NCBI RefSeq assembly: GCF_002305895.1 | Contig: NZ_CP022203.1 | Span: 7,226,001 to 7,290,000 of the forward strand | Source: Corallococcus macrosporus DSM 14697 | Lineage (GTDB): Bacteria > Myxococcota > Myxococcia > Myxococcales > Myxococcaceae | Length of the DNA: 64,000 nucleotides | Direction: 5' to 3' | Part shown: piece after piece, positions 8,758-11,950 of the stretch | Numbering within the stretch: position 1 is the stretch's first letter | How the letters are laid out: the number at the start of each line of letters is the position of its first letter | Program-made: the position numbers and the translations under genes | Notes under the pieces: model-generated | What the model was told of the DNA's origin: nothing | The model's input: only the letters and a program-made list of their open reading frames with translations | The model's database searches: none

Positions 8758-9978
8758 ATGAGCAACGCATACAGCAAGGACCTGGAGCGATGGATGCCGC
8801 GGCTCATCGCCGTCTGGCGCGCGTCCCGCGGCCGGGGTGGCGCCGGCGGACCGGAGACGCGCCTGACGCCCCAGGAGGTGAAGGAGGTGGCCGCCGGGGT
8901 CCGCCAGCTCTCCCTGGGCCTCACGCGGGAGCGGCAGCTCGCCGGCGCCCGCTACATGGATGACCCGAAGCTCCTGGGCGCCTACCTGCTCTTCTACTGG
9001 CCGGTGTCCTACGCGCAGGCCCGGCAGGTGCTCGGCGAGCTGCCGAGCCGCCCCCGGCAGGTGCTCGATTTGGGCAGCGGTCCGGGCCCGGTGGCCTTCG
9101 CCGCGCTGGACGCGGGCGGGGGCCAGGTCACCGCCGCCGACCGCAGCAAGCCCGCGCTCACCCTGGCGCGCAACCTGGCCGCCGAGGCCGGCGAGGCCCT
9201 GGCCACCCGCGACTGGGACCCGACGAAGAAGGGCGCCGCGCTGCCCGAGGGGCAGTTCGACCTGATTACGATGGGCCACGTCGTCAACGAGCTGTACGGC
9301 GCGGGCGACGCGGCCATCGCGCCCCGCGCCGCGCTGCTGGAGACGATTCTGGCGAAGGTGAAGCGCGGCGGCAGCCTGCTGGTGATGGAGCCGGCGCTGC
9401 GCGAGACGAGCCGCGGCCTGCTGCAGGTGCGCGACGCCATGGTGGCCAGGGGCTACGCCATCCGCGCGCCCTGCATGTACCGCGGCCCCTGCCCCGCGCT
9501 GGTGAAGGAGACGGACTGGTGCCACGCCGAGCGCGCCTGGCCCATGCCGCGCGTGGTGGAGGAGCTGGCGCGCGCGGCGAGCCTGCACAAGGAGTCGCTG
9601 AAGATGAGCTACCTGGTGCTGGCCCCCAAGGACGAGGCGTGGCCGGAGCTGACGCCCGGGCGGCTGTTCCGCATCGTCTCCGAGCCCCTGGAGGGCAAGG
9701 GCCGGCACCGCTACATCGGCTGCGGCCCCGAGGGGCGCGTGGGCCTGGCGATGCAGGAGCGCCACCGCAACGAGCGCAACGAGCGCTTCCTCAAGCTGAA
9801 CCGGGGCGACGTCATCTCCGTGACGGAGACGGAGCCCAAGGGTGACGGGCTCGCGCTCGACGAGCGCACCGAGGTGCGGATGGTGGCCCCCGCCGGCAAG
9901 CAGGTGCCGCCCCCACCGCCGAAGGAGGACGCACCGTCAGGCCCGGGAGCCGGCCCGCGCCCGGGCGCGCCCTCCTGA
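8758..9978 (+). CDS. Rsm22-like class I methyltransferase
   Basis: 406 residues. SAM-binding motif I VLDLGSGPGPVAFAA starts near residue 102; motif FDLITMGHVVNEL fits motif IV. A Cys-rich stretch, PCMYRGPCPALVKETDWCH (about 240-260), matches the conserved Cys/His cluster of the Rsm22 family (mitochondrial small-subunit-associated and bacterial relatives), thought to bind a metal or Fe-S cluster. The C-terminus (from about 300) has a basic segment and a Pro-rich tail. GGTGAAGG upstream serves as ribosome site for ATG 8758. The likely role is in small-ribosomal-subunit rRNA methylation or assembly; the substrate is inferred from the family. Divergent from the ABC exporter. Confidence 0.85.
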   Translation: MSNAYSKDLERWMPRLIAVWRASRGRGGAGGPETRLTPQEVKEVAAGVRQLSLGLTRERQLAGARYMDDPKLLGAYLLFYWPVSYAQARQVLGELPSRPRQVLDLGSGPGPVAFAALDAGGGQVTAADRSKPALTLARNLAAEAGEALATRDWDPTKKGAALPEGQFDLITMGHVVNELYGAGDAAIAPRAALLETILAKVKRGGSLLVMEPALRETSRGLLQVRDAMVARGYAIRAPCMYRGPCPALVKETDWCHAERAWPMPRVVEELARAASLHKESLKMSYLVLAPKDEAWPELTPGRLFRIVSEPLEGKGRHRYIGCGPEGRVGLAMQERHRNERNERFLKLNRGDVISVTETEPKGDGLALDERTEVRMVAPAGKQVPPPPPKEDAPSGPGAGPRPGAPS

Positions 9979-9999
9979 CAGCAGCCTGCCCATTTACGG

Positions 10000-10024
10000 T
10001 GCTCCCTTGCCGTGAAAGGGAGCA
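10000..10024 (+). terminator. Hairpin after the Rsm22-like gene
   Basis: TGCTCCCTT (10000-10008) pairs perfectly with AAGGGAGCA (10016-10024) around a 7-base loop, 22 bases after the stop codon at 9978. No T-tract follows, so termination efficiency is uncertain. Confidence 0.5.
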
Positions 10025-10186
10025 GTCATAGCTGGGGCGGGCGACATGCGCCGTAGGAAGTGGCTGAGGGACAAGGGCGGGGGCGTCAGCTGACGGGCGT
10101 GTGGGGAATCAGGCGGAGGAGAGGCCCGCTGCCGGGGATGGCCCATCTACGCGCGAAGAGGGTGTCCCATTCCACGCCATGTCCGG

Positions 10187-10640
10187 GGCCGCTGCCGACC
10201 GGCCTTCTGGGTGGAGGGAACGTTCATTCCACCGGGCCTCCATGGGGAGGGGCCCTCCGCCTTGGCATGACCGGAGGGGGGCCGCTGCCGACCGGCCTTC
10301 TGGGTGGAGGGAACGCTCATTCCACCGGGCCTCCATGGGGAGGGGCCCTCGCATTGGCATGACCGGCGGGGGCCGCTGCCGACCGGCCTTCCGGGTGGAG
10401 GGAACGTTCATTCCGCGAGGACCGACATGGGGAGCTTCCCTCCGCCTCGGCATGGCCGGCGGGGCCCACGGCCGGCTTCCTTCCGGTTGAAGGGAACGTT
10501 CATTCCGCGAAGACCGACATGGGAGCTTCCCTCCGCCTCGGCATGGCCGGTGGGGCTCACGGCCGGCTTCCTTCCGGGTGGAGGAAACGTTCATTCCGCG
10601 AGGACCAGATGGAGAGCGCGCCGCCTCCTTGCTCGAAATG
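10187..10640 (+). repeat. Tandem array: five direct copies of a palindromic motif, unit about 92 bp
   Basis: The core GGAACGTTCATTCC occurs at 10217-10230, 10310-10323 (GCTC variant), 10401-10414, 10493-10506 and 10584-10597 (GAAACGTT variant), spaced 93, 91, 92 and 91 bases. The intervening sequence is also conserved (for example CCGACCGGCCTTC before and CATGGGGAG or GACATGGGGAGCTTCC after the core), so these are true tandem repeats. In the first copies GGTGGA on the left and TCCACC on the right mirror each other around the 8-base palindrome GAACGTTC. The stretch 9979-10940 (over 900 bases) holds no gene I can support; the open frames across it merely reflect the periodic GC-rich repeat. Confidence 0.85.
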
Positions 10641-10692
10641 GACCTGCCGCCCCGCGAGGGTGCTCCCGCCCGGTGGTGCGGTCTCCCCCCTT

Positions 10693-10928
10693 GGAATGAA
10701 CGTTCCTTCCAGCGGGGCTGTGTCCCGGGAGCGTCACTCCCTCGTGGGATGGGCGCTCGATTTCCGGGCTTCCGACTTCGGCAGGGTTGGGTGTCCAGGG
10801 CTGGAATGAACGTTCCGTCCCAAAGGTCCGAGACTTGGGGGCGCGCCCCTCCGCCCGGAATGGACGTTCCGGTCCGGGGGGCCTTGGCGCTCACGGGGCA
10901 GGCTCCCTCCAGGTGGAATGGACGTTCC
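10693..10928 (-). repeat. Four inverted copies of the same motif
   Basis: The reverse complement of the core, GGAATGAACGTTCC, occurs at 10693-10706 and 10803-10816, and the variant GGAATGGACGTTCC at 10857-10870 and 10915-10928. Spacing is irregular (110, 54, 58 bases) and flanks are less alike than in the direct array. Orientation therefore flips around 10640, giving a five-against-four convergent arrangement. The last copy ends only 13 bases before the insertion sequence end. Confidence 0.82.
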
Positions 10929-10953
10929 ATTCCGGCGCGCCTCATAGCGCAGC

Positions 10954-11508
10954 TCAGATGGCCTGAGCGACAGAGTAACCGCAGTGGGCGAACCAGCCCG
11001 CTGCGTCGCTTGGGGAGATGGCCGCCAGGGCGAGGTGGATGCCCTGGCGCAGGGCGGAGCGGGTACGAAACCTCCACTTGCGCAGCCGCGCCTTGACCTT
11101 GCTCCATGCCAGTTCGATGGGGCTGAAGTCGGGACTATAGGGAGGCAGGAAGACGACCCGGGCGCCGCGCGATTCGATGACGTCGATGAGCGCTCGGCAC
11201 TTGTGGGCGGCCAGATTGTCCCAGACTTCCAGGCTGGTGCCCCCCTCGACTTCCATATGGGCTTCGATGCCCTGGTGCGTCAGCGCGCCGAGGACCGTGG
11301 TGACGCAGCCGCGGTTGCGCGGCACCGCCTCGCCCGTCAGGCGCTCTCCGGCAGGCGCCCGCCCGTGCGTGCGAGTCATGTCGGTGCGGCTGCCCATCTC
11401 ATCCACCACGACGAGCTTGTCGGGCGCCCCCTTCCTCATGCCCAGCGCGTACGCCCAGCGAAGGCCCTCTACTGCCTGGGTGTCGCGCTCGGTCGCGTGG
11501 AGGGATCT
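10954..11508 (-). CDS. IS630-family transposase, DDE catalytic part (frame -1)
   Basis: About 184 residues when read from the frameshift site at the A-run 11513-11508. It begins RSLHATERDTQAV, the linker typical of IS630 transposases, then carries the three catalytic acids: KLVVVDEMGSRT (first Asp), EVWDNLAAHK (second Asp) and SPDFSPIELAWSKVK (Glu). An internal ATG at 11439 would give 161 residues that lack the linker. Ends at 10954, very close to the element end. With the upstream part it makes a transposase of about 300 residues. The catalytic residues are intact, so the element may still be active if frameshifting works. Confidence 0.85.
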   Translation of the reverse strand, partial: RSLHATERDTQAVEGLRWAYALGMRKGAPDKLVVVDEMGSRTDMTRTHGRAPAGERLTGEAVPRNRGCVTTVLGALTHQGIEAHMEVEGGTSLEVWDNLAAHKCRALIDVIESRGARVVFLPPYSPDFSPIELAWSKVKARLRKWRFRTRSALRQGIHLALAAISPSDAAGWFAHCGYSVAQAI

Positions 11509-11855
11509 TTTTTACGCGTCAACCCCATGCGCCGCAGCGCTCGATTCACCGTGGTGTGGTTGATGGCGCACCCAGCACGTACCGCATAGACGCGTGCCAA
11601 CTCCTCGTCAGTGGCGTCGGGACGCTCGCATACCAGGCGCCGTAGCACTTCTTCGCCCGCTGCATCCACCTTGCGAGGGGCCCCGCCCCCATGAGGACGC
11701 GCACGGACGCTGCCGGTTGTCTCGAAGCGAGCGATGTAGCGCCGCACCGGGGCATAGCCGAGCATGAAACGACGGGCGATGGCACTCTTGCCCTCGCCCT
11801 CTTGCCAGGCGGCGATGACACGCTCGCGCAGGTCAAGTGAATGGGTACTGGACAT
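11469..11855 (-). CDS. IS630-family transposase, DNA-binding part (frame 0)
   Basis: 128 residues with two helix-turn-helix units: a winged first one (SLDLRERVIAAWQEGEGKSA) and a second in PDATDEELARVY to HTTVNRALRRMGLTRKK. It runs past the A6 run at 11513-11508 and stops 12 codons later. Codons around the run are CGT AAA AAA GAT; a -1 slip leads straight into the catalytic frame, giving KKRSLHATERDT, as in uninterrupted family members. Start ATG 11855. Confidence 0.85.
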   Translation of the reverse strand: MSSTHSLDLRERVIAAWQEGEGKSAIARRFMLGYAPVRRYIARFETTGSVRARPHGGGAPRKVDAAGEEVLRRLVCERPDATDEELARVYAVRAGCAINHTTVNRALRRMGLTRKKDPSTRPSATPRQ

Positions 11856-11950
11856 GGCAGGCGACTCCGCCTGCTCCCGTCATCCACACCCCGCTATGAG
11901 TCAGGCACCGGGCTCCTGCCGCTTCGGGGCCGGTGCATCCGAAGTCCGGC

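Follow-up and report, generated by a model that had tools for sequence, protein, structure and literature searches.

The locus raises the question of what a cluster of palindromic motifs, laid out in both orientations in a stretch without genes, is for. It lies in the chromosome of Corallococcus macrosporus DSM 14697, in a window of 64,000 nucleotides (the whole stretch of DNA that was analysed; NZ_CP022203.1, positions 7,226,001 to 7,290,000). A first-pass annotation had described nine copies, five direct and four inverted, in a gene-free stretch. All nine were found at the positions claimed. They span 10213-10933, with cores at 10217, 10310, 10401, 10493 and 10584 on the + strand and at 10693, 10803, 10857 and 10915 on the - strand. 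No overlapping ORF with coding-like GC3 was present over 10187-10942, and by codon composition the stretch is thus gene-free. The 20-bp unit of the array is a near-palindrome (TGGAAGGAACGTTCMTTCCA). The motif is symmetric as had been proposed, but the symmetric unit is slightly longer: 18 bp (GGAAGGAACGTTCMTTCC) in seven of the nine copies and a related 19-bp form (GGAAYGGAACGTCCATTCC) in the last two. The features of the array are as follows.

10213-10230, + strand: site 1, GGAGGGAACGTTCATTCC; the same sequence is found in the L011 copy
10306-10323, + strand: site 2, GGAGGGAACGCTCATTCC
10397-10414, + strand: site 3, GGAGGGAACGTTCATTCC
10489-10506, + strand: site 4, GAAGGGAACGTTCATTCC
10580-10597, + strand: site 5, GGAGGAAACGTTCATTCC
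10693-10710, - strand: site 6, GGAAGGAACGTTCATTCC; one base off the palindrome of the TetR operator (see below)
10803-10820, - strand: site 7, GGACGGAACGTTCATTCC
10857-10875, - strand: site 8, 19-bp form GGACCGGAACGTCCATTCC
10915-10933, - strand: site 9, 19-bp form GGAATGGAACGTCCATTCC
10185-10624, + strand: five tandem units of 91-93 bp each, holding sites 1-5 (family D1)

The five direct copies are spaced at 93, 91, 92 and 91 bp, in agreement with the 91-93 bp annotated earlier. The spacings of the inverted copies are 110, 54 and 58 bp, so the regularity is confined to one half of the array. When up to three mismatches were allowed, the window contained 17 matches against 2.4 expected, and none of 100 shuffled sequences reached 17. 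Spacers had been described as conserved. This applies to neighbouring units of the array, whose spacers are 64-99% alike, but not to the other arrays of the genome, which have different spacers. A CRISPR array was rejected because neighbouring spacers resemble each other to this degree and are not unique.

The core proved to be neither restricted to this locus nor present at chance frequency. The exact 14-mer has 33 copies in the chromosome (8,973,512 bp, single contig), 121 were counted with up to two mismatches as against 6 for the reversed control, and the core was found at numerous loci as well as in 14 genomes of the genus. According to a site map built from pattern searches, the chromosomal copies form about ten arrays plus single sites. 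Array periods in this chromosome are about 56, 60, 69-72, 78, 92 and 105-111 bp; period and spacer sequence differ from array to array, and the only common part is the palindrome TGGAMGGAACGTTCMTTCCA of about 20 bp. The densest array of the genome has approximately 20 sites in both orientations, with a 50-56 bp period, within one intergenic region (L015, 5249-6380). Another array (L012, 5007-5943) consists of 19-bp sites with a 69/72-bp period, 144 bp at a degenerate unit, and is open in several frames on both strands (e.g. repeats of AAWNGTSIPPAGAPEP). The earlier suggestion that the spacing would place the sites on one face of the helix did not hold: 47 array periods from several species, ranging from 44 to 108 bp, gave no sign of a 10.3-10.7 bp phase (Rayleigh p 0.5-0.67). 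A phage, plasmid or viral-contig origin was rejected: the array had no matches in phages, and the TetR protein described below had none in viral contigs, phages or plasmids.

Many of the sites fall in intergenic regions flanked by convergent genes or within coding sequences, among them those of sufD, argH and a kinase, a distribution that makes a promoter-controlled regulon less likely. Sites within different genes are read in different frames and strands, and most sites carry a conserved mismatch in one arm. In sufD and a second gene, comparison with eight genomes revealed the palindrome without any indel, indicating that it arose in place. The sufD palindrome (L016, 5151-5168) is perfect or nearly so, is kept in most M. 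xanthus-like species and is absent from genomes G060 and G066. These observations bear on the annotation as a REP/BIME-like array, according to which the palindromes would be small dispersed repeats or palindromic mobile elements spread by insertion, with the TetR genes described below having received one by chance. The sites are indeed dispersed, palindromic, arrayed and variable between species, and like the REP/BIME elements associated with RAYT transposases they form clusters of both orientations. However, the lack of an insertion relative to the outgroups inside the two genes is evidence against a mobile mini-element, no more than about 20 bp is common to the arrays, and the sites are tied to a TetR gene: the distance from operator to promoter-like block is fixed in most TetR copies and a variant palindrome goes with a variant TetR. 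The REP/BIME label was therefore dropped, intragenic sites arisen in place and the conserved arm mismatch being at odds with it, and we regard spreading by insertion as very improbable. Still harder to credit is that the repeats are kept for the peptide repeats they encode (GTFIP, NGTSIP). Some arrays (L012, L014) do have open frames, with periods that are multiples of three, and the sufD site reads GTFIP, but the periods of 91-93 bp in the window and 50-56 bp in L015 do not keep the frame, and frames and strands change from gene to gene.

A candidate for the binding protein came from three loci of the C. macrosporus chromosome, at which the palindrome is located upstream of a near-identical TetR-family gene:

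L013, chromosome 7.688 Mb: TetR-family gene preceded by the palindrome
L017, chromosome 6.373 Mb: the same
L019, chromosome 0.087 Mb: the same

With 80 further copies from 15 other genomes of the genus, the sample comprised 83 TetR genes, at 1-19 copies per genome. Among the 75 copies with enough upstream sequence, the palindrome was present in 66 at a match of at least 16/18 and in 73 at a match of at least 13/18, and it was retained even where the TetR proteins were only about 40% identical. Its centre precedes the start codon by 41-54 bp in most copies and by 92-164 bp in some. Upstream of the palindrome there is a conserved promoter-like block, TGTCAGMCCCnnnnGGTAGA. A strict pattern located it in 53 copies, and in 49 of these its start precedes the operator by 30 or 31 bp; at L019, for example, TGTCAGACCC-GGTAGACA (chromosome 87917-87938) stands at this fixed distance. 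The block possibly represents a special promoter class, and may resemble a damage-inducible promoter. A role as a general regulon signal was rejected, since in C. macrosporus it was found only at the three TetR genes and in two weaker matches. The order promoter, operator, regulator gene suggests the layout of a self-repressor.

The N-terminus of the protein matches PF00440 (TetR_N) above the gathering score (E 1.5e-10 to 3.4e-10). AlphaFold gave pLDDT values above 90 over most of residues 1-190, with about ten helices in TetR topology, and the top PDB matches were TetR-family regulators. The helix-turn-helix and the core are well conserved among the copies.

Palindrome and TetR gene also go together between genomes. 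In 27 genomes of the genus, both the TetR gene and the 18-bp palindrome were present in 16 and both were missing in 11. The odds of such a coincidence are 1 in 1.3e7 if the genomes are taken as independent, which they are not, as the 16 could represent one or two clades. TetR copy number correlated with the number of sites (rho 0.77, p 5e-4, with each genome treated as independent). Most M. xanthus-like strains have one TetR gene and seven to nine sites, while others have 19 genes and more than 100 sites; G060 and G066 have two TetR genes each and exactly two palindromes, that is, operators without arrays. In G067 and G057 a variant TetR subfamily is accompanied by a variant palindrome (GGAATGGAGCNTCCRTTCC), and its upstream sites are altered, to GCGGGAGGAGCGCTCCTTTC in most TetR copies of G067. 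The variant 19-mer GGAATGGAGCNNCCRTTCC has 102 and 52 copies in G067 and G057, respectively, and at most three in any other genome. In G067, arrays of the variant with a period of 92-98 bp lie directly upstream of TetR genes of the variant subfamily.

On these sequence comparisons we consider it likely (probability of roughly 0.78) that the motifs are operators of a genus-restricted, self-repressing TetR-family regulator, and that the arrays have grown by tandem duplication and have been kept by selection. The earlier idea of a myxobacterial protein-binding array is supported in this respect, and the protein can now be given a probable name, the multicopy TetR-family regulator. The TetR protein would repress its own gene through the palindrome behind the promoter-like block. 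At other places in the chromosome, base changes would create single sites, and duplication of a site together with its local flank would produce tandem arrays. The array in the window is a second-hand copy of such an array and was inserted, along with an IS630 element, past the end of an unrelated gene. TetR dimers would occupy the arrays.

The history of the window array could be followed by comparison with relatives. The gene ending at 9978 is present in all relatives, the downstream sequence of the window is absent there, and in the three relatives checked (L135, L136 and L137) position 9978 is joined directly to 11897. This identifies the intervening 1.9 kb, which the relatives lack, as an insertion with the following parts.

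9979-11896: whole insertion; the gene end at 9978 adjoins 11897 in relatives
9978-10944, + strand: array copy, 88% identical to its source in inverted orientation; the source, which includes an array, is the intergenic region at 7614960-7615937 of the chromosome
about 10941-11900, - strand: IS630-type element bordering the array copy, with an HTH ORF (11469-11855), a DDE ORF (10954-11439) and the ends CTCATAGCG/CGCTATGAG

The transposase of the IS630-type element is split into these two ORFs and lies directly against the array copy; possibly it was the element that brought the array here. The number of palindromes at the source locus ranges from zero to two in the relatives, some of the single ones being imperfect, which argues that the array grew from a single site via tandem duplication. 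Between the window copy and the source copy, the nine sites diverge by 3.0% and the array spacers by 13.6% (odds ratio 5, p 4e-5). The sites thus look maintained, through selection or through exchange among sites, and gene conversion could account for their low divergence.

A TetR-family protein with many sites could also act in chromosome organization or division control, in the manner of SlmA or Noc, through scattered sites and its tail and not as a repressor. SlmA, a nucleoid occlusion factor, shares with the present system the TetR fold and many chromosomal sites outside promoters, and the conservation of the sites, their creation in place within genes and the long open tail in all copies are consistent with such a role. 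Here, however, the sites form tandem arrays whose place and number vary between close relatives, two species have no sites beyond the TetR operators, and the gene is multicopy and long-tailed. There was no family match, since the 22 bits that one of four proteins scored with the SlmA model NF007015 fall short of the cut-off, 120. We think a SlmA- or Noc-like function rather unlikely.

The operator reading leaves the long C-terminal part of the protein to be accounted for. Beyond the TetR core, all 80 copies examined keep frame 0 free of stops over 176 codons or more, whereas the other two forward frames are equally open in just 21 and 5 of the 80. The shortest ORF encodes 359 aa and does not fit the length usual in the TetR family, which at about 190-230 residues is typical and not strictly defining. 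The C. macrosporus paralogues lose homology at +589 to +619, yet every tail is open; the loss of homology indicates that their tails are unrelated. Where tails within one genome are homologous, the reading phase is kept in 166 of 167 windows and substitutions are almost evenly distributed over the codon positions. The one tail that was modelled was disordered (pLDDT below 50). Each TetR copy has a tail that is long and arbitrary and probably disordered, and the open frame, the kept phase and the even substitutions suggest that the tail is translated and needed but free in sequence. A programmed frameshift leading to an early stop past the TetR core was rejected, as stops in the other frames share no common place. 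At L017 the TetR frame continues in frame into a lipoprotein gene. The question raised is why all copies should hold the frame open far past the functional domain while the sequence of the tail varies.

The boundaries of homology also bear on the view that a TetR unit of about 700 bp is a selfish repressor module copying itself around the chromosome, with the arrays as by-products or as decoys relieving repression. The homology between paralogues in one genome runs from about -85/-112 to +590/+670 relative to the start codon and is lost thereafter, and there are up to 19 copies per genome. But the unit contains no transposase, no defined inverted ends were found, and longer flanks are common to many copies, so that segmental duplication could explain part of the pattern. 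A selfish module seems improbable.

If the arrays are operators, as we favour, what they are used for can be answered only tentatively. They might titrate the repressor and thereby leave its own genes partly active, a purpose to which we would give slightly less than even odds. Somewhat less probably, TetR dimers assemble across multiple sites into a nucleoprotein cluster that serves a structural function or silences genes, aided by the disordered tail. It is doubtful that stop-less TetR modules spread and gain new arbitrary tails, the proteins clustering on the arrays or being unstable because of their tails or non-stop translation, with repressor dose, site number and tail coevolving.

Regulators of the TetR, BetI, ScbR and FadR types likewise have an HTH domain, an all-helical core and a palindromic operator just upstream of their own gene. 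The present system differs from them in three respects: each genome has 1-19 copies, near-identical or paralogous; tens to more than 100 further sites lie in arrays; and the tail, at least about 170 residues long, is unconserved in sequence between insertions. Iteron-like or ParB/parS clusters are similar in that a short motif is clustered for one DNA-binding protein, but no plasmid or phage context was found here and the protein is a TetR, not Rep or ParB. Synthetic TetR operator arrays placed on chromosomes (FROS) also consist of TetR-type operators, and the present arrays differ from them in being natural and of varied spacing. No paper describing such arrays or such a TetR system was found in the literature. 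The findings point to a TetR system that is multicopy, self-regulated and equipped with natural arrays of operators, apparently undescribed so far in these well-studied predatory bacteria; Myxococcus xanthus itself has a copy. The system is relevant to the questions of how binding sites of transcription factors multiply and of whether bacteria make use of decoy operators or TetR-based clusters.

In a second genus (G001) two relatives of the TetR gene were found whose layout matches but whose palindromes are others, GTGGACGAAACGTTTCGTCCAC and GTAGAAGCAACGTTGCTTTCAC. This agrees with the operator reading, whereas the lack of arrays in the 785 kb sampled (11% of the genome) counts against it. The two genes of G001 (L154 and L155) have long open tails, one of them with tandem repeats.
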